64,000 nucleotides of DNA, taken from assembly GCA_905233845.1 (NCBI GenBank), contig CAJOFH010000006.1:49844-113843 (forward strand), read 5' to 3'. Every line of letters starts with the position of its first letter. The first letter of the stretch is position 1. A program made the position numbers and the translations under genes. Below, piece after piece: positions 23,612 to 36,049 of the stretch. The stretch is from an uncultured Muribaculaceae bacterium (GTDB lineage: Bacteria; Bacteroidota; Bacteroidia; Bacteroidales; Muribaculaceae). Below the pieces are notes generated by a model, which saw only the letters and a program-made list of their open reading frames with translations, was not told the DNA's origin and did not search any database.

Positions 23612-24952
23612 CTATTTTTTCACGTTACGAAGTTCTTGCAATTCCATCAGAAATTCACTTACCAAATCACGATATTCTAAAAACAGCTCCCTCTTTGCCA
23701 TTAATTCATCCAGTTTCGGATCAAGGTTCTTACTGTATTTTTTCTGGAAATTGATGGTATTGTGCACATATACATGTTTCTTTATATAGGTACACCCATT
23801 TTCATCTTTCTCAAACATGCGTACAGCATCACGCCTCAAATCTGGATTTCCCAGCAAACTCAGATCGTGAGTTGCTACGGCAATTTGGCAGTCCTCAGCT
23901 ATTGAAAGATACATCTTTACAATAAAGGCCAATGCTTTCGAATGTATGCCCGCATCTATTTCATCTATGCAGCTACACTTACGTCCCATCACGATGTCAT
24001 ATACAACCACCAGCAACCTTATAATATTGAGCGTTCCAAACGATTCCAACCCGCTATCCAGCGATTTATTGCCATAATGAGCGGTAGAATGGATAAAACG
24101 TAAGTTTTTGTGAGAAATCACACCCGTTGGATATTGTTCTCGCATTGCTCTAATCAAAATCTCAGGAGCGCCACTTTTTACTAAATCAGAAATCAGCACA
24201 CTAGCATCATCCACCTCGTAGTCCACAATGTTAGCACCAACATCCTTCAGCAACTTCAGCAGTAGTTTCTTCACTCGCTTGTCACGTTCCTGGTCACCTG
24301 TTTGTAGCCTGTCAGCAAGACTCTGTTCACCTCGTCTAACCAGACTGATTCTTTGACTAAAGTAATCATAGTTTTGCCTCAGAATGGAACTCTCTAGATT
24401 CAAAGCTCCAAATACTGACAAAACCGTACTGTTCTGAATCACGTTTGACACAAGCGTCCGTTGGTCCTTCTTGCTCAAGTCACAGGCCTGTCCAAACTTT
24501 ATGGCAACGGTATCTTTCTCCTCGTTATACACTCTCTGATAAATTGGAGGGTTCCCAACTTGCTGCAAAACCTCTTCTTCAATCCTATCTGCACTCACCG
24601 CCACCTTATAATAATATGGTACATTGTCTATATAATATGATATAGTGAGTACTGTAGGCTTGTTACGCGATTTGTCATCTAAGAGGAAGGGCCTGTATTC
24701 CGGCTTGTTATCTGGTTTTTCCGGCTTATCTGTAGCTATCATCCTAAGATAACTTAGGGCAGAGAACATCTTCGATTTACCAGTACCATTCAGTCCCACA
24801 CATAGCAGCAACCTTAGTATTCGCTTCCCATCTATCTCTTTATACCACTGTGGAGGCAATGCGCTCCCCTTCTCTTTATTAGAGGCCACAAAACTCAAGA
24901 CCTCCTCTTTTAGGTATGATCTGTAATTTTCAACAGTGAACCGTTCAATCAT
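23612..24952 (-). CDS. AAA family ATPase (ABC-type, AAA_15/AAA_21-like), stand-alone
   Basis: MIERFTVENYRSYLKEEVLSF; Walker A VGLNGTGKSK; Walker B CSCIDEIDAGIHSKA; H-loop VATHDLSLL. Confidence 0.88.
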   Translation of the reverse strand: MIERFTVENYRSYLKEEVLSFVASNKEKGSALPPQWYKEIDGKRILRLLLCVGLNGTGKSKMFSALSYLRMIATDKPEKPDNKPEYRPFLLDDKSRNKPTVLTISYYIDNVPYYYKVAVSADRIEEEVLQQVGNPPIYQRVYNEEKDTVAIKFGQACDLSKKDQRTLVSNVIQNSTVLSVFGALNLESSILRQNYDYFSQRISLVRRGEQSLADRLQTGDQERDKRVKKLLLKLLKDVGANIVDYEVDDASVLISDLVKSGAPEILIRAMREQYPTGVISHKNLRFIHSTAHYGNKSLDSGLESFGTLNIIRLLVVVYDIVMGRKCSCIDEIDAGIHSKALAFIVKMYLSIAEDCQIAVATHDLSLLGNPDLRRDAVRMFEKDENGCTYIKKHVYVHNTINFQKKYSKNLDPKLDELMAKRELFLEYRDLVSEFLMELQELRNVKK

Positions 24953-25016
24953 GATAAAAAATAGTCTTTTTTACTAAAAAACGCCGTAAAGGTAACAATT
25001 ATTGTACAAATAGCCA

Positions 25017-25043
25017 AATTTTCCGTGAATTTCCCACGGTTAC
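25017..25043. repeat. Inverted repeat upstream of AAA ATPase
   Basis: ATTTTCCGTGAATTTCCCACGGTTAC; CCGTG/CACGG arms like those in 23537-23573. Confidence 0.5.
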
Positions 25044-25317
25044 AATGCATTTTAGGCACAAAAGCCAATTAGTCATCGCTAACCAGCATTTTCTGTGATT
25101 TATGCAAGCGTATTAAAGTTTTCGTTTACAAACTCACAAGCATCTTACAAATCATCTAACGGCGCTTTAAGATCCCCTTATGCCCAATGTTTTCTCGCAC
25201 CTTACCCTTAAATATGGAAAAAATATTGAGACAGCTTATATTTTATATACTTCGAAGATATTTATGGATAAATAGAACGAAGTTGAAAAGATAAATAATT
25301 TAATAAAATAAAAGGCA

Positions 25318-25401
25318 ATGAAGAAGTTTTCACGTGAGGCCCTCTCGACGATATTTGAAGTTCTCGGAATCATCGCTGCTCTGATTGGTTTGTTCTTATA
25401 A
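25318..25401 (+). CDS. Putative 27-aa hydrophobic microprotein
   Basis: ATG...TAA encodes MKKFSREALSTIFEVLGIIAALIGLFL, Lys/Arg N-terminus and one TM-like helix; too short for the ORF track; speculative. Confidence 0.3.
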   Translation: MKKFSREALSTIFEVLGIIAALIGLFL

Positions 25402-25473
25402 GGACATCCATTATCAAGAGGGCTTAAAAGCAAAGACTTTGGTTTGTTATATTTACATATTCGAAAGAACCTT

Positions 25474-25674
25474 TTAGAAGTCCTTGTATTTGTCTCCCAG
25501 TTCAAGCAAATCCTTGAACTTTTCCATTCGTTCTGGCCTCAACTCACCATCATTCACCAACTTCTGTTGATGTTTCCACCAATTACGAAGGCCATGTTCC
25601 GAATCTACAAACTTCGATGACCTCCTATGGTTTTCTGCCATGAAGCACATAACAGCCTTCCATTTAACAAACAA
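25474..25674 (-). pseudogene. Remnant of a helicase-associated (HA) domain protein
   Basis: FMAENHRRSSKFVDSEHGLRNWWKHQQKLVNDGELRPERMEKFKDLLELGDKY resembles the W..Q.....G.L..ER...L HA-domain pattern (PF03457-like) without any helicase core. Confidence 0.55.
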
Positions 25675-25705
25675 TCTTTTCCCTGCGTCATATTCTCCCC
25701 CGAAA

Positions 25706-26959
25706 TCACTGTTCCATCAGCCACTTCCATATAGGCACCACGGGTATTCCATCTTCCGTGCCTTCCTCATCATAAGTAATCAGCAGGCACTTCCAGCCCA
25801 CATGCGCCTTGGCGTACTTCACCAGTGGCGGCACCTCCCTATTGTAAGTGGTTTCCTCCTTGATGCTATACGACACCTGAATGGCCAGTTGCTCGTCAGG
25901 CACGATGAAGTCTATCTCTTTCTCCGCATTCAGGAAAAACACATTCTTCTTGCCAAACCGCCTACATAGCTCCACCGCTACCATGTTCTCCAGTAGCGAC
26001 GTCTCTGAGTTCATTAAGAACAGGTTCAGCAGTCCATTGTCAACGAAATAGTATTTCTTCTGTGTCTCTTTCTCAGTCAGCTTCCCTACCTCGTTCTCCA
26101 TGGGCAGTATCAGCCAACTATCAGCTGCATATCCCGCATAATCAATCGTTGTCGGCACGCTGATGGGCGCTCCCGTTGCCGTAATCACATTCTTCAGCCT
26201 ATTATACGACAGCGGTTGCTTCACGCTCTCCGCCATCTTCTTAATTAGAATGTTCAATACCCTGTCGCTCTTAATGTTATTTCGGGCACAGATGTCACCT
26301 AGATATATCTTCTGATAAAGGCTCGATAGCATAGCCCGCTTGTTCTTAAACGACAATATCTCTGGCAGGCCACCGTAATAGAAGTATTCGTTCAGATGTC
26401 GCTTCACCTCACTTCTCTGAATCGTGTCATATTCCCAATGCGCTTTCAGATCCACCTGCTGCGCTGCCAGATATTCCTTGAATGAATATGGGTACGCATC
26501 ATAGATAAAGAACCGTCCGCCCAGCGTAGTTGCCACCTCCTTGCTCAGCATCTTCGCATTGCTGCCCGTTACATATACCCTGTATTTTGCATCAGTTAAT
26601 CTCCGTACGAACTTATCCCAGTGGGCTATGTTCTGCACCTCATCTAGGAACACAACAGGCTTTTTGCCATACAGTTCCAGATGGGTCTCCAGCAGACTAT
26701 TGAAGTCCTCAGTCTGAAACTCTGCCAGACGCTCATCCTCAAAGTCCACAAACAGTATCTCGTCCCATCCTTTTCCTGCCGCCTGTAGTTGTCGCACACG
26801 TTGGTACAACAGGTACGACTTACCAGCATGTCTTACACCAACTATCACATAGTTTCCATTCTCCTCAAAGTCAATGGGCCGGGGTACTATTTCCGCCTCA
26901 TCCACTTCACGTTGCTTACTGATTAGACACTGCTTTATGACATCTTTGCTAATACTCAT
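25706..26959 (-). CDS. ATP-binding protein, AAA_14 / DUF4143 family
   Basis: VIVGVRHAGKSYLLYQRVRQL, VVFLDEVQNIAHWDKFVRRLTD, VYVTGSNAKMLSKEVATTLGGRFF...YPYSFKEYL, C-terminal FFLNAEKEIDFIV. Confidence 0.93.
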   Translation of the reverse strand: MSISKDVIKQCLISKQREVDEAEIVPRPIDFEENGNYVIVGVRHAGKSYLLYQRVRQLQAAGKGWDEILFVDFEDERLAEFQTEDFNSLLETHLELYGKKPVVFLDEVQNIAHWDKFVRRLTDAKYRVYVTGSNAKMLSKEVATTLGGRFFIYDAYPYSFKEYLAAQQVDLKAHWEYDTIQRSEVKRHLNEYFYYGGLPEILSFKNKRAMLSSLYQKIYLGDICARNNIKSDRVLNILIKKMAESVKQPLSYNRLKNVITATGAPISVPTTIDYAGYAADSWLILPMENEVGKLTEKETQKKYYFVDNGLLNLFLMNSETSLLENMVAVELCRRFGKKNVFFLNAEKEIDFIVPDEQLAIQVSYSIKEETTYNREVPPLVKYAKAHVGWKCLLITYDEEGTEDGIPVVPIWKWLMEQ

Positions 26960-27247
26960 TTAAATTATATTTAATAAGAATTATGTGATTTTATAAAGTC
27001 CAGTTTGCAAATTTAGGTGCTTTCTATAAAATATAATTAACAAACTCCAAGTTTTTGCAATATTTTCACATTTTTTATTGCAAATCATTTTTTTACCCTT
27101 CAAAAGTGAAAACTCTCCAGGATTATTCTTGTCAAAATATAGTAGCATTATACCTTTATATTTTTTTAATCTAAGATTACCTTGCAAAATAATCTTATTT
27201 AATAATAGATATTATTCAACACGCTTATACAAAATACCAATCATAAA

Positions 27248-27559
27248 TCACATATTAAAATAATATCTAAGGGGCATTTCTGCATTACATTTCAACAATT
27301 TATCATTGATTGTCTGCACATCCATGTCATTTAAGAAGGTGTTTACTTTGTCCCCTCGTGAAATCTTAAGTTCATTTCTGCGTTTTTCAACCAACGACTG
27401 AGTAATCTTTGTCCCCTCTACATTTGACACGATTCTGATGGGTGACTTATACCATGTTTTCAAAAGGTTGATAAAACAAGCTTCCGTTTCCCCCTCGCAA
27501 ATAACAAGGGCGATTTTGCGCATCCACATAGATGGAGATGGTTCTCTTCTACTTGCCAT
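27248..27559 (-). pseudogene. Truncated RloB-like TOPRIM-family protein
   Basis: KIALVICEGETEACFINLLKTW and FLNDMDVQ motifs but only 103 aa; lacks the NPCFEIW motif seen in the intact paralogue at 30376-31065. Confidence 0.6.
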
Positions 27560-27561
27560 GA

Positions 27562-28794
27562 TTAGTCTTCCAATAATTGTTTGATACTAGACACAGAGGA
27601 GTCAACATAAGGCACTGCATCAAATCGTCCCTGTATATACCCTTTTTCAGCATCCATGTTCTCACGAAAATCCTTGAAATCGTATAATGAATAAACCTCT
27701 GTTGCACCCTGCTCGGTTTTATTAACAAACACGATTTGGTCACGTCTTAGTCTTTTAACGTCAATGAGATTCGTATTATGTGAGGTGAAAAGTAGCTGAC
27801 TACTCTCCGAAGCATGGATCAAATCCAAAATGAAGTCTGCCAGGCGAGTGTGAAGTCCCATGTCAAACCCATCCATCAAAATACTTTTCTTATTCTTAAC
27901 GACATCCAAGAGGCGTATAATTATTTGGAACAATTTACGTGTTCCATTTGATTCTTCCATATCCAAATCGAACATCACATCTTTCTGATTACGATGAAAC
28001 GTTTTGAAACGCAGCACATCAACAATCTTATATGAGAGTTCGGATTCTCCAGTTATAGCAACAGGAGCTGTTGTTTGTTCTTTTCTTGCCTCAATGTCGG
28101 TAATATCCATGTCGCATATTTCAAGAGCCTTAAGGATAACTCTTTTATATGTGTTGAAGTTGTCCAACACCATCATATCATTAACATTAACAAGTCCTAG
28201 AAGGAATTGGTTCATGAAATAACGATAAAGCTTTTGGGTTATTTCACGGTTCATTGAACTAGCACGACTCAGAAAAAGATTCTTTTCGCTGGTATTGGTT
28301 GCCACATCTGATGGTTTTGCCATTACACCACCTGTACCATAACTATATTTTCCATTAGAATTACGAACAAACACCTTTGCCCGTCTGCCCATAGGATAAT
28401 GATACAAACTTTCGCTTACAATGCGATCTCGAGTGAGTTCAAAAGAATACTCATACTCAACATTTTCACAAACGAAGTTAATTAGGAATCTACTTGTTTT
28501 TTTCTGCCATCCATCAAATTTGAAAGGTTCAAAGTTGAATGTTACACCTTCATTGTAGAGGTGAGACTCCAAGATCATTCTACAACAAAATGTAACAGCC
28601 TTCAATATGTTAGATTTTCCAGAAGCATTAGGACCAAATAATCCAACAGATTTTAATACTGGAACACCCTTCCACTCCATCACATTATGTTTTAATTCGC
28701 GGGCAAGAGCAGTATTAATGCTTGCAGCTCTGAAATCAATTCTTACTCTGTCTCGTATTGAGAAGAAATTTTCAAATTCAATTTTTAGTATCAT
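27562..28794 (-). CDS. AAA family ATPase, RloA-like (ABC-type AAA_15)
   Basis: Preferred start MILKIEFENFFSIRDRVRIDFRA; Walker A VGLFGPNASGKSNILKA; signature EESNGTRKL; Walker B ILMDGFDMGLH; H-loop LLFTSHNTNLID. Confidence 0.88.
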   Translation of the reverse strand: MILKIEFENFFSIRDRVRIDFRAASINTALARELKHNVMEWKGVPVLKSVGLFGPNASGKSNILKAVTFCCRMILESHLYNEGVTFNFEPFKFDGWQKKTSRFLINFVCENVEYEYSFELTRDRIVSESLYHYPMGRRAKVFVRNSNGKYSYGTGGVMAKPSDVATNTSEKNLFLSRASSMNREITQKLYRYFMNQFLLGLVNVNDMMVLDNFNTYKRVILKALEICDMDITDIEARKEQTTAPVAITGESELSYKIVDVLRFKTFHRNQKDVMFDLDMEESNGTRKLFQIIIRLLDVVKNKKSILMDGFDMGLHTRLADFILDLIHASESSQLLFTSHNTNLIDVKRLRRDQIVFVNKTEQGATEVYSLYDFKDFRENMDAEKGYIQGRFDAVPYVDSSVSSIKQLLED

Positions 28795-29146
28795 CTTAAT
28801 TGCGATTTTGTAGATTTTCTGCAAATATAGCAATTAAATTTGATTTTGCAATGTATTATATTCAAAATAAGGAGTAATTGTATGTATTTTAACAATTAAA
28901 CACTTTTGAAAGTGTAAAAAGTCGGCTTCTAATAAATGACTTTTTGAAATAATGACTTTTTTCGAGTGCAAAGGAGCTGGATTAACTTGTATTGGAAGAT
29001 TTTAACTTAGATAAATCTATATGCTTTTATCTAGTAAAGATAATTCATAAGACATGCATTCTTTTATACTCTATTTGGCTTTCAAAAACAGTCGCTCTTA
29101 TTAACAGTTGTTAAGAGCCGTTGTCTTGCCTTTTACTATTGTCTCC

Positions 29147-29290
29147 ACACTGCCAGTAGCTTCTACAACCTTAAGTATCAGATATTTAAGCGATTATAGA
29201 CCCATTTTAGCCAATTTCTGACTTTGCCCTGCAAAGATAGTATAAATTCCTGAAACACAGCATATTTACGACGATATTTTTAAAAAAAAT
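29147..29290 (+). repeat. Possible third, more diverged copy of the island-edge repeat
   Basis: CACACTGCCAGTAG...TTAAGTATCAG...TGCAAAGATAGTATAAATTCCTGAA...GCATATTTACG shares ordered blocks with 21921-22057; weak. Confidence 0.35.
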
Positions 29291-29404
29291 CACTTACCAA
29301 TAATGACATTTTTTTGAGATTTGCATGCTCATGTGCTCTAATATCAATACTAGTCACCTGTGATTCAGCAGGTTAATTACACTCAAAAATGCAACAAATT
29401 GCGT

Positions 29405-29637
29405 AAAAGTGGTATGATATTGGCGGTTGCTTAAATACCGAGGGGGTTGAACTCGTGAGTATCACTCACGACTTCAAGTTCCAAGCTCGTGATGGTAGAC
29501 AGAGAGCAGATGATGCACTCGACGCCAAGTGCGTTCAGACATTGTCTAAAACTATCTCAACAACCGTGCAAATGCATTTCTTGATTGGTTTACCTATAGC
29601 AATAACACCATTGATTTATTAAATATAAGAGGATAAT
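29405..29637 (+). pseudogene. Protein-coding relic (resembles Bacteroidales Fic/RhuM-associated proteins), frameshifted
   Basis: Reads YDIGGCLNTEGVELVSITHDFKFQARDGRQRADDALDAKCVQTLSKTI then in another frame FLDWFTYSNNTIDLLNIRG; no intact start or full-length frame. Confidence 0.35.
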
Positions 29638-29639
29638 AA

Positions 29640-30139
29640 TTATTTATTTTCCAAAAACCTATTAGCCAACTTAATAATATCAGCATCTCCAGTCTTTAGG
29701 GCTGTTTCTATAAAAAAAGAGCAGTGTCTTTATTATCAACACTTATGTTGGCTTCATCCTTTTCAATTGTCTTTTCAATTTGTTTTAAATGCGATATAAT
29801 AATATTATAACCATCTTGTGAAGTTTCATCATTTTTCATTTTTTCGTCCCAACTTGCTAAAGCATTAAAATAGGATTGAACCGCATTGCCAAAGGTTATA
29901 AAGATAAGATTACTCTTATTATATTGAATCTCTTTGTACAATTCAGCTTTTGCTTTTTGAACCTTTGCATCGACTATCTTCTGCACCTTTTCATCTTGAT
30001 ATAAGTGGGTATATATTTGCCATCCAACAAGTAGTGTGACAAGAACCGTTAATATACCAAGTGGAAAACTAACGCTATTAATGTCCAGTTCTTTACTAAA
30101 CAATGATATACTTGAAAATAGAAGAGCAATAATGCTCAA
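29640..30139 (-). CDS. Hypothetical TM + coiled-coil protein, apparent frameshift near C-terminus
   Basis: Track ORF 29708-30139 stops at a T7 tract; one extra T gives ...DNKDTALFFIETALKTGDADIIKLANRFLENK* ending at 29640. Confidence 0.55.
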
Positions 30140-30375
30140 TAAGACAGTTAAGATTAATAATTAATTTTTCATTTAATAAACCAATAACAAGAAGTATGAA
30201 TAGAGAAAATGAATTTAATTCAATAGATACCAGAATATGCTAATTCACCTTTCATATACAAATCAACGTTTGTAAGATTGAACATGATATTAAAGCAATT
30301 TCTGATTTATGACACAAACAATCATCCTACTATCTAATTAAAAAAGTAATAAACTAAATAAGCTCCCAAGAATCC

Positions 30376-31065
30376 CTATCTAATCTTATTTCTTAGCTTC
30401 TTGAGATCTGTATTAACAAAACCATTAATTTCCTTGCCTAGCAAAAATGTCTCTGTTGTAAATCTTTGAGGATTTTCTTTATCTGTCAAGTAGTTTCTTT
30501 CTGCATTTTTTATAGCATCTTCTAGTCTTACTGGATCTCTTTCAAAGTTAAAACCACCAGATATAGCGCTATGCACATACTCCTTGAAAGATGAATGTTT
30601 CTCAACCTCATCTTCTAATGGCTTATTCTCATAGAAATGATAGTAAAGCCAAATCTCAAAACAAGGATTGCTTTGCGCCACATTCCATGCATTGTAGATT
30701 TTAATTTCATCAAACGTTTTGGGTATGTTTGAATTCATTTGCGAACAAAAAACACGCAATGAGACAATCTTTCCTTCTTGCTCCCATGTATCTGTATCAA
30801 TTACAAACCAAACAGTGTCGTGATGTTCATATTCTACTGAATAAGTCCTTTCGTCACTTATCAGCACATGGCTGGCACGCTCCATAAGCTTAATTGGATC
30901 TGTTCCATCTTGAGGAGGTATAGTAATAACTTGTAAGTTTGAAGACAATCCCTCAAAGAATTTGAAATAATCAGGTTCTGTGCCTTTGCCCTCGCAAACA
31001 ATATATATTTTGTGGCAATCTCTTGAAGGCTCTCGCTTGCCGTAGTCTCTTCTTCTCTGTATCAT
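30376..31065 (-). CDS. RloB-like protein (TOPRIM-related nuclease candidate)
   Basis: Preferred start MIQRRRDYGKREPSRDCHKIYIVCEGKGTEPDYFKFFEGL; VWFVIDTDTW; SNPCFEIWLYYHF. Confidence 0.85.
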   Translation of the reverse strand: MIQRRRDYGKREPSRDCHKIYIVCEGKGTEPDYFKFFEGLSSNLQVITIPPQDGTDPIKLMERASHVLISDERTYSVEYEHHDTVWFVIDTDTWEQEGKIVSLRVFCSQMNSNIPKTFDEIKIYNAWNVAQSNPCFEIWLYYHFYENKPLEDEVEKHSSFKEYVHSAISGGFNFERDPVRLEDAIKNAERNYLTDKENPQRFTTETFLLGKEINGFVNTDLKKLRNKIR

Positions 31066-31066
31066 A

Positions 31067-32392
31067 TCACCAGTGTAAGTCTTTGAGATTAGACAAGAAA
31101 GGTATGCCCCCGTATCGACCATTCAAATAGCCATTCTCAATGTTGGCTGTCTTGTGAACATTGAAGTCACTCAGTGGGTACAGCTGAGTGGCTTGTTCTG
31201 CATCCTTTTGTGCAAACCAGATCTCATCAGGTCGAAAGATTCTTTGATCAAGTAGACCAGATTCATGTGTAGTGAATACTATTTGACCTCTGGCATTCTC
31301 ATTTTCTGAAAGTTTTTGCATTATATCTTTTATCATGATGGGATGAATGCTACGCTCTATCTCATCAACAACATATACCAAATCATTCTGGATAATAGCA
31401 TATAACAATGGCATATACTCAATCAAACGACGTGTACCATCTGATTCACCATGAAGAGACATTTCAATTTCTGATCCATCCAAATTCTTATGAACCGCAA
31501 CTAATGATTTAATAAATAGATTCCCATTTTCATAAATTACATTTACGACATCTGATGTGTTATTATCACGTACAAGTTGAGGTTTTCCTGGATCCGCTTT
31601 AGCCAATTTGACTAATTTCAATTTATCTTCACCTCTTAAATCCTCCTCTCTTAATATTTCCTTTTTGACTTTTAATCTGTGAATGCCCGTTTTAAGTTCT
31701 GGCAGTGTTTTAGCAACTAATTTTGAGAACTTGGAATCAACATCAATCATGTGAGGAACATAGCCGTTGAATGAGTCAGGAAGAACCAATTGTAACTTCT
31801 TAATAAACCATTTATAAGCATCTGAAACCAATGGACATTCATTAGCATAATACTTCCCCAAAAACGAGAGTAGAAGCATGTCAGGACGCACAAGTCTGTT
31901 CAAAGCGTCCTGAAACTGATCTGCTATACCTTTGGCAATATAAGTTGGATTAATACTAATATTTGATCCATCTCGTTTGAAAATATTCACATCTTTGCTT
32001 TTTTTACTCATAAGCAATTGCTCAGTGATTATTTCTTTTGGAGAAAACTCAATTTGATAATAAAAGATAGTTTTGTTATAAAAGAATTCTATAGCCAAAC
32101 CAGAAGATTTGAAATTATATTTTGGGTCGAATTTAAATGTCAATCCATCATAAAAATCGATCGTCCTCAAAGACTCAACTTCTACCATCGTTTTCAACAG
32201 ATCGATTGCTTTTAGAAGATTACTTTTACCAGCTCCATTTGCACCATAAATAGCACTCATTCGCAATGCTGTGGCATGTCCACACGAGATCTTGTGATTC
32301 TCATGACTGTGGCTTTTGCTTGATGGGAACATATTAAACTCAACTGCGTCCTTAAAAGACATTATATTTTCTGCAACAAATCTCAATAACAT
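31067..32392 (-). CDS. AAA family ATPase, RloA-like partner of the RloB-like gene
   Basis: MLLRFVAENIMSFKDAVEFNMFPS; IYGANGAGKSNLLKAIDLLK; GESDGTRRL; VYVVDEIERSIH; FTTHESGLL; its TGA (31069-31067) abuts the RloB ATG (31065). Confidence 0.92.
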   Translation of the reverse strand: MLLRFVAENIMSFKDAVEFNMFPSSKSHSHENHKISCGHATALRMSAIYGANGAGKSNLLKAIDLLKTMVEVESLRTIDFYDGLTFKFDPKYNFKSSGLAIEFFYNKTIFYYQIEFSPKEIITEQLLMSKKSKDVNIFKRDGSNISINPTYIAKGIADQFQDALNRLVRPDMLLLSFLGKYYANECPLVSDAYKWFIKKLQLVLPDSFNGYVPHMIDVDSKFSKLVAKTLPELKTGIHRLKVKKEILREEDLRGEDKLKLVKLAKADPGKPQLVRDNNTSDVVNVIYENGNLFIKSLVAVHKNLDGSEIEMSLHGESDGTRRLIEYMPLLYAIIQNDLVYVVDEIERSIHPIMIKDIMQKLSENENARGQIVFTTHESGLLDQRIFRPDEIWFAQKDAEQATQLYPLSDFNVHKTANIENGYLNGRYGGIPFLSNLKDLHW

Positions 32393-32968: not shown

Positions 32969-35900
32969 ATGAGAGTTTTACTGTTGAACATTTCTGACAT
33001 ACATGTATTGTCACAGAATAAGCCGGAAAATGAAGGACTTGTTCTGAGAAAGTTTATTGTTGATGTAGAGGAACAAGCAAAGAGATTCGTCTATGAAGAT
33101 GTATACATATTGATTAGTGGCGACTTAGTATTTGCTGCTTCTGATGAAAGTTATGCTAAATTTGATGATATTATTGTGAAAGAATTAATGAGGGTTTTCG
33201 GTATAGACAGAACTCATTTCATCATTGTTCCTGGCAATCATGATATATCACAAAAAGCTGTTAGAGATGTAGAAGAATCTTTCATTCCCATCTTCAACAG
33301 TCAATATGATGAGAGCTTATTCAATGACTTGGTTCAAAAAGAAGCACAAAAAGAAATATTATTTGGTAAATTTGCTTCTTTTCAGCGTTATATGAAGGAT
33401 ACGATGGGTATTGATGATTACTCACTTCATGCAAATATGTACTGTATAAATCACACATGGAGTATCCATGTCCTAAATACAGCTATACTCTCTTGTGGTG
33501 CATATAATAATATAAATGATCAAGGGCACCTTGGAGTAGATACTCGATGCTTACATAATTTACTATCAGAAGACAAACACTCTAAGAAAATTTTGCTTAT
33601 GCATCACCCTGAGTACTTCTGTATGGACTGGGTAAAACAAGAATTGAGAAAACTATATGGTCAAGAGTATGCCATGGTTTTGTCTGGACACACTCACGAG
33701 CAATATATCTTTTGCGATGATAGAGAAGGCTATATCCGTTGCGAGGCGCCACAATTATTTACGGATAAATATGATGATATTTTAGGTTATAATTTCATTG
33801 AACTGGATGATGATAAGGTTGTAAAGATAACCTATCGTCAGTGGCAAGAGAAAAGAAATAAGTTTAGGGCCGGTTCTGATTTCGTTGACGATGAAGAATG
33901 TAATGGTGTAATTACATTTGTTGATGATGTGAGTGAGCAAAAACATGTATCACCAACGGACCTAACCACAATATTGATGCAGGAACGTCTGAGAAAGGAA
34001 ATGGAGTCATATTTGGGGCAACCGTATATTTGGGTAGATCGCTATTTGAGTGATGACCGTCTGGATAATGTCTTTAAGATGCAGGAGTCTACCTTATTTT
34101 CTGAACTTGATATAATTAAAAATGGCGAGAACATTCATGCAGTAGCACCATCACAGTATGGACTAACTTGCTATGGTAGTCATTTTCTTCTTACACTATG
34201 GGAAAGTCAACATGAATTTGGCATAAAAGTAGATGCTGATGGAATAAGAGTAAAAAAGTTTGAAAAACTTGTTGATGCCGAACTTAATCATTATGGTAAA
34301 GACAAAAAAGATGTAAAATGGATAGTCATTGATAATTGGAAACCTTATCGCAAAGACCAAAAGGGAATCAAAGCCTATTTGGAACAAGAGTTCCCTGATG
34401 CACATGTTTTGTTGATGACAATTTACCATGAAAGCGATTTCATCTCTGGAGAATCTTTTGAAGAGGAAGAGATAAAATCTAAAACTTTATATCTGACTCC
34501 TCTCAAAAGATCACAAGAACGATTGATGGTAGATGCGTACAATAGAGAAAAATTTATTGATGACAGTGAAGAAGTCCTTAATAAACTTGATGAAGATTTA
34601 AAGAACTTCAATCTACATCGTTCGCCTCACAGTTGTGCGACGCTATTGACCGTTTTCAAAGATTCTTTCGACCGTAATCCAGTGAACAGAACAGATGTTC
34701 TTGAGAATGTTCTCAGTATTATTTTTGATAATACTAGATTACCAAATTATAGAACAAAAAAACCAGACGCAAAAGATTGTGACTTTTGTTTGGGGTATTT
34801 CTGTTCGAGACTCATAAAAAAAAATGATTATTTTTTTAGTAAGGATAGTTTTGTCAATGATATTCGTGATTTCTGCCGAAAGATGGACTATGATGTAGAA
34901 GTAGATTTGCTTTTTGATATTTTGTGTTATAATAAAATTGTGATTGAAGACCATGGAGTCTATAAGTTCCATTTTACATTTTGGGTATATTATTTTGTAG
35001 CTTCATGGATGATAGCTAATGAAGATTATGCAAATGAAATATTGGAGAATCAAAACTATCTTCATTATCCCGAGGTTTTGGAATTTTATACGGGAAAGGA
35101 TCGGCATCGCAAAAATGCAGTTGAGACACTTATAAAGGATTTGTCTGTAGCGTCAAAATCAGTACAAGCAAAGACTGGTATGAAAGAGCAAGATGACCCC
35201 TTTGCCTTTTTACGATTTAGCCAAGGGGAGGAACAAGAAAAAAATATTATTAGGAGAATTGAATCTGATGTAAAACTGTCAAATCTGCCCCAATCTGTAA
35301 AAGATCAGACTGCAGATTTATCATATAATCCTTATGCTGCTTTTCATCAGGATATTTTCAAAGTGTATTCTGACTTCTCTGTAGGTTATTTAGTAAATAT
35401 CATTCGAATAGGCAGTAAAGTTTTTAGGAACAGTGATCAATTGGGTGCAGTTATCAAGCAAAATCTCCTATCAGAATTGACCTCTGCAATGAAGGTTCTT
35501 TCAAATATTATATATTTGGTTTCACCATTATTTTCTAAACAAGGTTTTATTCAACTTACTGACTATTCTTTTAAATTGACAAATGATTTTTATAAGTTAA
35601 ATGAAAAAGAGCGCACAATTAAAATACTTGTTACTATACCTTATAATCTTACGATGATGTTCAAGGAAGATATATTCTCATCCAAATTATCCCCGGTATT
35701 TGTTTCAAGTTTAAATAATGAGAGAGATAAAGTAAAACGCCACTTGCTGGCCTCTTTGCTCATCTATAAACAACCAGAAGGATGGGGAAAAGCAATAACC
35801 AATTATATGGATACTATAGGTCAAAATTCTTATTATCTGGGCACCTTGCTTGAACTGATGCTTACAGTATACCAAAATGGAGAATTGGACGAATCTGAAC

Positions 35901-36049
35901 AGAGGAGGTTGAAAAATTTAATAAGAGCTGCATTTTTTAAGAATAGTCAAGGGAGGCTACCATCTTCGCAGGGTGAGTACAATCAAATAGATTTATCGAA
36001 GACGTTTTTGCGTGGCGGAGACAACAAAGACACAGTTGGTTCAAATTAA
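32969..36049 (+). CDS. Calcineurin-like phosphoesterase fused to a STAND-like NTPase region and helical C-terminus
   Basis: N-term metallophosphatase motifs NISDIHVL, ISGDLVF, VPGNHDIS, LLMHHPEYF, LSGHTHEQ; then HAVAPSQYGLTCYGSHFLLTLW (degenerate P-loop position), VKWIVIDNWKP (Walker B-like), LTPLKRSQ, FHFTFWVYYFVASWM (winged-helix-like). Confidence 0.8.
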   Translation: MRVLLLNISDIHVLSQNKPENEGLVLRKFIVDVEEQAKRFVYEDVYILISGDLVFAASDESYAKFDDIIVKELMRVFGIDRTHFIIVPGNHDISQKAVRDVEESFIPIFNSQYDESLFNDLVQKEAQKEILFGKFASFQRYMKDTMGIDDYSLHANMYCINHTWSIHVLNTAILSCGAYNNINDQGHLGVDTRCLHNLLSEDKHSKKILLMHHPEYFCMDWVKQELRKLYGQEYAMVLSGHTHEQYIFCDDREGYIRCEAPQLFTDKYDDILGYNFIELDDDKVVKITYRQWQEKRNKFRAGSDFVDDEECNGVITFVDDVSEQKHVSPTDLTTILMQERLRKEMESYLGQPYIWVDRYLSDDRLDNVFKMQESTLFSELDIIKNGENIHAVAPSQYGLTCYGSHFLLTLWESQHEFGIKVDADGIRVKKFEKLVDAELNHYGKDKKDVKWIVIDNWKPYRKDQKGIKAYLEQEFPDAHVLLMTIYHESDFISGESFEEEEIKSKTLYLTPLKRSQERLMVDAYNREKFIDDSEEVLNKLDEDLKNFNLHRSPHSCATLLTVFKDSFDRNPVNRTDVLENVLSIIFDNTRLPNYRTKKPDAKDCDFCLGYFCSRLIKKNDYFFSKDSFVNDIRDFCRKMDYDVEVDLLFDILCYNKIVIEDHGVYKFHFTFWVYYFVASWMIANEDYANEILENQNYLHYPEVLEFYTGKDRHRKNAVETLIKDLSVASKSVQAKTGMKEQDDPFAFLRFSQGEEQEKNIIRRIESDVKLSNLPQSVKDQTADLSYNPYAAFHQDIFKVYSDFSVGYLVNIIRIGSKVFRNSDQLGAVIKQNLLSELTSAMKVLSNIIYLVSPLFSKQGFIQLTDYSFKLTNDFYKLNEKERTIKILVTIPYNLTMMFKEDIFSSKLSPVFVSSLNNERDKVKRHLLASLLIYKQPEGWGKAITNYMDTIGQNSYYLGTLLELMLTVYQNGELDESEQRRLKNLIRAAFFKNSQGRLPSSQGEYNQIDLSKTFLRGGDNKDTVGSN

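Follow-up and report, generated by a model that had tools for sequence, protein, structure and literature searches.

Within the window, the 64,000-nucleotide stretch of uncultured Muribaculaceae DNA analysed here, one gene (Table 1) encodes a calcineurin-like metallophosphoesterase (MPP) joined to a STAND-like region in which the Lys of the Walker A motif is missing, and the question is whether it is a broken copy of a defence protein or a sensor with an altered switch. The initial annotation had read a metal-binding set in the first ~300 aa, followed by a STAND-like middle region, a winged helix and a long helical C-terminus. These readings were borne out by Pfam (Metallophos, 6-244; nSTAND_NTPase4) and by the P-loop core of an AlphaFold model, and the metal-site residues D10, H12, D52, N90, H91, H212, H241 and H243 were invariant in the alignment with MPP-STAND relatives (16-19% identity). 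The GC content of the gene was 34%, against 42% over the window's first 23 kb and 37.5% in the polysaccharide locus downstream.

Table 1. Features of the MPP-STAND gene and its neighbours (columns: feature; position in the window; strand; remark)
MPP-STAND-helical single-protein candidate immune sensor	32969-36049	+	ATG start, 1026 aa, APSQYGLT P-loop
Calcineurin-like metallophosphoesterase, residues 6-244	32984-33700	+	Pfam PF00149 Metallophos, E=1.8e-9, above gathering score
P-loop NTPase (STAND) core, residues 389-512	34133-34504	+	AlphaFold region model, Foldseek, hhalign against DS-8 set
Altered Walker A APSQYGLT, residues 393-400	34145-34168	+	A393 and L399 in place of Gly and Lys
Walker B Asp D455 (WIVID)	34331-34333	+	Invariant, 22/22 family members
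H550, lid/P-motif region	34616-34618	+	Pro there invariant in 14/14 members outside the GL clade
Winged-helix segment, residues 621-677	34829-34999	+	Pfam nSTAND_NTPase4, E=9e-7, above gathering score
Long helical C-terminus, presumed sensor	35036-36046	+	Clade signature PE(I/V)(I/L)EFYTGxDR
AbiLi/RloA-like AAA_21 ATPase, divergent neighbour of the MPP-STAND gene	31067-32392	-	
AbiLii/RloB-like protein, partner of the AbiLi/RloA-like ATPase	30376-31122	-	
AAA_14/DUF4143 ATPase	25706-26959	-	PADLOC candidate PDC-S01

The segment APSQYGLT aligned to GAEKIGKT of DS-8 proteins (hhalign profile-profile comparison, 97.5% probability, E=5e-12), and in an AlphaFold model of residues 317-694 the GLT segment formed a strand-loop-helix (block pLDDT 84-89) within a core of beta-loop-alpha-beta-alpha-beta-alpha-beta topology. 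Absence of the invariant Lys from GxxxxGKS/T, as first annotated, was thereby confirmed at the true P-loop position. A Foldseek search with this region model returned ORC, RFC and Cdc6 ATPases, Avs4 (8dgf), RPP1 and NLRP3 (E from 6e-5 to 5e-3), with TM-scores that were modest because half of the region model was unreliable. Weak, short matches (62-138) in ORFs of ~350 aa that covered the P-loop stretch alone were disregarded as generic P-loops. AlphaFold confidence was low except in the P-loop core, the MPP core and the winged helix, and the full-length model (mean pLDDT of 48 with six sequences) was set aside as a guide to domain arrangement. The top PDB match of that full-length model was 9a6c_B (E=1.5e-10), a chain of a YydD-YydB model and a possible MPP relative.

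Among the hallmarks of STAND proteins, the beta-alpha topology of the P-loop followed by a winged helix was present, as was the Walker B hhhhD; the Walker A GxxxxGK[S/T] was not, being replaced clade-wide. The stretch proposed as winged-helix-like, FTFWVYYFVASW, proved to be the last part of the nSTAND_NTPase4 segment called by Pfam and not a separate motif, and LTPLKR, proposed as sensor-like, was not conserved as a motif across the family.

The architecture has precedents. NCBIfam DS8_antiphage (NF053861) matched residues 7-684 of the window protein with 116.5 bits (E=8e-34), against a curated equivalog cut-off of 790 bits, which by its sequence makes the protein a distant relative of DS-8 and not DS-8 itself; L046, a relative discussed below, scored 97 bits. 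DS-8 is a single MPP-NACHT protein that defends E. coli from phage, and mutation of either the catalytic residues of its MPP or a residue in its NACHT removes this defence (DeWeirdt et al. 2026; PMC13092281). With DS-8 validated in 2026 and the family listed by PADLOC in 2023 as candidate PDC-S60, MPP-STAND is a known architecture and not the under-described one of the initial annotation, whose proposal of an Avs-like protein with a phosphoesterase effector was right in kind but is no longer new. DS-8 and the window protein each combine an N-terminal MPP with intact metal site, a P-loop STAND/NACHT, a winged helix and a helical C-terminus in one chain, and they are homologous over most of their length (about 14% identity to L052 in the STAND/C-terminal part). 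DS-8 proper (L052, L062, L063, L065 and L094, all above the cut-off) keeps GK[S/T], Gly393 and Pro550, whereas the window protein has GLT and neither of the other two. A DNA search for the E. coli DS-8 from the K. grimontii plasmid gene gave no match.

The window protein falls within PDC-S60, its residues 5-986 matching positions 3-996 of the 1027 in the model (E=8.6e-42). PADLOC places MPP proteins (PDLC05051) and DUF4062 proteins (PDLC05050) under this one candidate name, with the P-loop state not part of its description; a literature search for a published mechanism of PDC-S60 found none. The order of effector, STAND and helical sensor is also that of Avs (AVAST) and bacterial NACHT/NLR-like proteins, and among P-loop folds the modelled core resembles Avs4, NLRP3 and RPP1. 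No Avs model was among the PADLOC matches to the window protein at E<=0.1, and the Walker A Lys, essential in PaAvs5 (PMC12931631), is absent from it. The DUF4062 effector of Swarozyc is common to clade members L007, L039 and L045, whereas the window protein has MPP and no DUF4062 by Pfam; in the Swarozyc protein studied, KpSwz, the auxiliary domain is of HTH/winged type, and its description includes no STAND core.

The missing Lys extended beyond the window. GLT was found in close relatives (L001-L004, 65-83% identity), which came from Bacteroidales and from one contig binned as Pseudobutyrivibrio, and at 26-30% identity GLT was found in L046 (MPP) and in L007 and L039 (DUF4062), and GLS in L045 (DUF4062). 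Canonical GK[S/T] was retained in L042/L056, L043, L052, L062-L065, L094-L097 and L100. In a 22-row tree, with deep branches long and weakly resolved, the eight GL[T/S] proteins, several of them from metagenome-assembled genomes, formed one clade (support 100/100), and other trees agreed. A complete switch between the eight GL and the twelve GK proteins (8/8 vs 12/12) occurred at exactly three columns, G393 to A, K399 to L and P550 to H, while the second P-loop Gly (G398) was, like D455, the same in 22/22. What is new here, as read from these alignments, is that loss of the Walker A Lys is a trait of the whole clade and is accompanied by a three-column switch of the pocket. H550 is reported only as a clean Pro-to-His switch because position 553, where Pro is kept in 7/8 GL members, fits the NACHT P-motif about equally well; its equation with the exact GxP/P-motif proline of NLRs was dropped.

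A decaying or pseudogenised DS-8 with a dead and unused NTPase would account for the loss of the Walker A Lys and Gly, but every clade member (8/8), even at 26% identity, carried the identical replacement, reading frames were open, and the NTPase and winged helix were the slowest-evolving parts. Between the window gene and L001, dN was lowest in the winged helix (0.077) and the NTPase (0.082) and higher in the MPP (0.118), and dS had reached about 2 or saturation. In the five GL members that diverge most (26-42% identity), 12% of ungapped columns were invariant, and these included A393, G398, L399 and D455. Codons for Leu399 in four relatives were CTA, CTG, TTA and TTA, which indicates that Leu was kept while codons drifted. 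Taken together, the shared GL residues, codon drift and low dN indicate that the altered pocket is held by purifying selection and is not in decay. The broken copy suspected as an alternative at the outset was thus ruled out for the clade by the shared GL, the intact frames and the low dN, and disuse of the NTPase is extremely improbable.

One copy stood apart: the gene of L002 (8001-11074) had a frameshift near residue 36 and DNHD for GNHD, and is to all appearances broken or misassembled. Two further MPP-STAND proteins were without the Walker A Lys, L051 of Paracoccus versutus plasmid pTAV4 (ORF from 4914), with GST, and L040 of a Sinorhizobium meliloti plasmid (5926-9150), with GRT. In both, A or S stood in place of the first P-loop Gly, with Pro in the following position. 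They represent a probable further loss of the Lys, weakly supported (68/95 in the 22-row tree, 92/92 in another tree) and possibly independent of that in the GL clade.

The surroundings of the gene agreed with the defence-like island of the initial annotation, in which it lay divergently from an RloA/RloB-like pair (AbiLi/AbiLii, 30376-32392). Defence genes also stood beside L002, L003, L004, L039, L048 and L049, so that homologues were not always housekeeping-linked. An AbiLi/AbiLii pair lay directly upstream of L002, L003 adjoined PDC-S01 genes, L004 had a C5 methyltransferase/Vsr set on one side and genes of type I restriction-modification on the other, L039 lay inside a type I restriction-modification locus, L048 adjoined AbiEi/AbiEii, and L049 adjoined an FRG protein (PDC-S15); the inspected neighbourhood of L047 held no defence neighbour. 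In the window itself, three AbiLi/RloA-like ATPases stood in a row (23612-32392, minus strand), one with a full RloB (30376-31122), one with a 103-aa RloB remnant (27248-27559) and one alone (23612-24952). AbiL-type modules look, from these remnants, to have been gained and to have decayed repeatedly.

The gene was found in 0/36 same-genus genomes searched, a distribution that fits an accessory defence gene. Beyond Bacteroidota, searches extended to plasmids, phages and viral contigs and included a single scan of genomes with a peptide pattern. Among 50,697 phage records none contained a relative of the STAND/C-terminal region, and viral contigs contained no GL relative; one canonical MPP-STAND (L056/L059) sits on a viral contig. 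The K. grimontii plasmid pNY3A gene (L042/L056/L059) shares 99% identity with a gene carried by viral contig IMGVR_UViG_2537562214. A YueH-family gene, typical of Bacilli, is present on this plasmid too, which perhaps makes the origin or host of the record questionable. The 83%-identical copy L001 came from a contig of 3.2 kb that had been binned as Pseudobutyrivibrio (Bacillota), and points either to mis-binning or to a recent transfer between phyla. On a Pseudomonas mandelii plasmid (L041, 6001-7017), the GL-type C-terminal sensor part stood as a free 338-aa ORF near CBASS genes, and a STAND part sought upstream of it was not found.

The window protein is probably a single-protein, NLR/Avs-like anti-phage sensor of the wider DS-8/PDC-S60 group, with a switch that does not use the canonical P-loop Lys. 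Its helical C-terminus would recognise an infection (phage-derived) signal, upon which, by analogy with DS-8, Avs and NLRs, the STAND core and winged helix would rearrange and protomers would assemble. Clustering would then turn on the N-terminal MPP, the site of which is intact, and the MPP would most likely hydrolyse a phosphate-containing metabolite or nucleotide, stopping the infected cell.

In the GL clade this switch would work without the canonical Lys, with nucleotide not required or else held in a non-standard manner, and a Lys-independent activation switch is the leading inference from the joint change of G393A, K399L and P550H and its retention by selection. Substitution of the Walker A Gly or Lys by Ala abolishes immunity in PaAvs5 (PMC12931631), and in NLRP3 K232A forms no ASC specks and P412A lowers hydrolysis to 20% (PMC9633759). 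Failure of these mutants, set beside a clade lacking the Gly, the Lys and the lid Pro, points to a switch that is nucleotide-independent or binds nucleotide differently. Loss of the Walker A Lys alone does not exclude nucleotide binding, and the GL STAND may still bind ATP/ADP non-canonically and work like other STANDs, with other basic residues or subunit contacts replacing the Lys. That all members keep G398 and D455 as well as Thr or Ser at position 400 agrees with this, as does LypA of Caulobacter, which was modelled with ATP and for which binding was suggested by its authors despite missing conserved Walker residues (PMC13236601). This reading, somewhat less likely than not, is weakened by the joint loss of first Gly, Lys and lid-region Pro, by the loss of function of the Lys-to-Ala mutants of PaAvs5 and NLRP3, and by the failure of the one candidate for a compensating residue: a basic residue at position 574 was at first present in 10/10 Lys-less and 0/7 canonical members, and was abandoned when five canonical members were added and L100 had Lys there.

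Effectors of three kinds preceded the shared STAND/C-terminal module. N-termini in the GL clade were MPP in the window protein, L001-L004 and L046, and DUF4062 in L007 and L039 (both above the Pfam cut-off) and L045 (just below it), with the DUF4062 members forming a separate group. In the DS-8 clade they were MPP in L052, L062, L063, L065 and L094, DUF4062 in L095, L096 and, partially, L098, and a TIR-like domain, read from the sequence, in L097 (G510); the DUF4062 and TIR members were nested among the MPP members (95-100% bootstrap). Matches of NF053861 to the TIR/DUF4062 fusions L095, L096, L097 and L098 ran from about position 284-304 onward, and a full-length cut-off would therefore miss them. 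In Swarozyc, DUF4062 acts as a TIR-like NADase and brings about abortive infection (PMC13174449). The MPP is thus most likely an exchangeable executioner, and repeated exchange on one sensor module suggests, by analogy, that it shares the role of the NAD-depleting domains, acting on an abundant small molecule.

PDB profile matches of the MPP were split among the cyclic-nucleotide phosphodiesterase Rv0805, lmo2642 and Mre11/SbcD nucleases. The match to Rv0805 is consistent with an MPP that removes a cyclic-nucleotide signal or alarmone instead of killing the cell, in the manner of SMPDL3A, the cGAMP phosphodiesterase to which the authors of DS-8 compared its MPP (PMC13092281); the repeated swapping of MPP for the NAD-depleting executioners TIR or DUF4062 argues against such signal removal, which is unlikely. 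An Mre11/SbcD-like DNA or RNA nuclease, that is, an Avs-type effector, is distinctly unlikely: Mre11/SbcD was among the profile matches and canonical (GK) relatives had SbcD-family matches, but cyclic-nucleotide phosphodiesterases matched equally well or better, the window protein showed neither a capping domain nor a DNA-binding domain of Mre11, and the exchange partners of the MPP are NADases. Nucleases are the effectors of many Avs proteins, which was counted in favour of a nuclease. It is somewhat unlikely, but conceivable, that the GL lineage gave up canonical ATP binding altogether, with ligand alone driving assembly, and that the MPP represents a novel executioner class, one that replaces TIR-type NADases and attacks NAD or nucleotides.

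With the Lys lost, the fold kept and the effectors swapped, the GL clade offers a natural test of the role of the nucleotide in STAND switches, and the exchange of MPP with TIR and TIR-like NADases is a direct lead on the function of the DS-8 MPP, which its discoverers left open.
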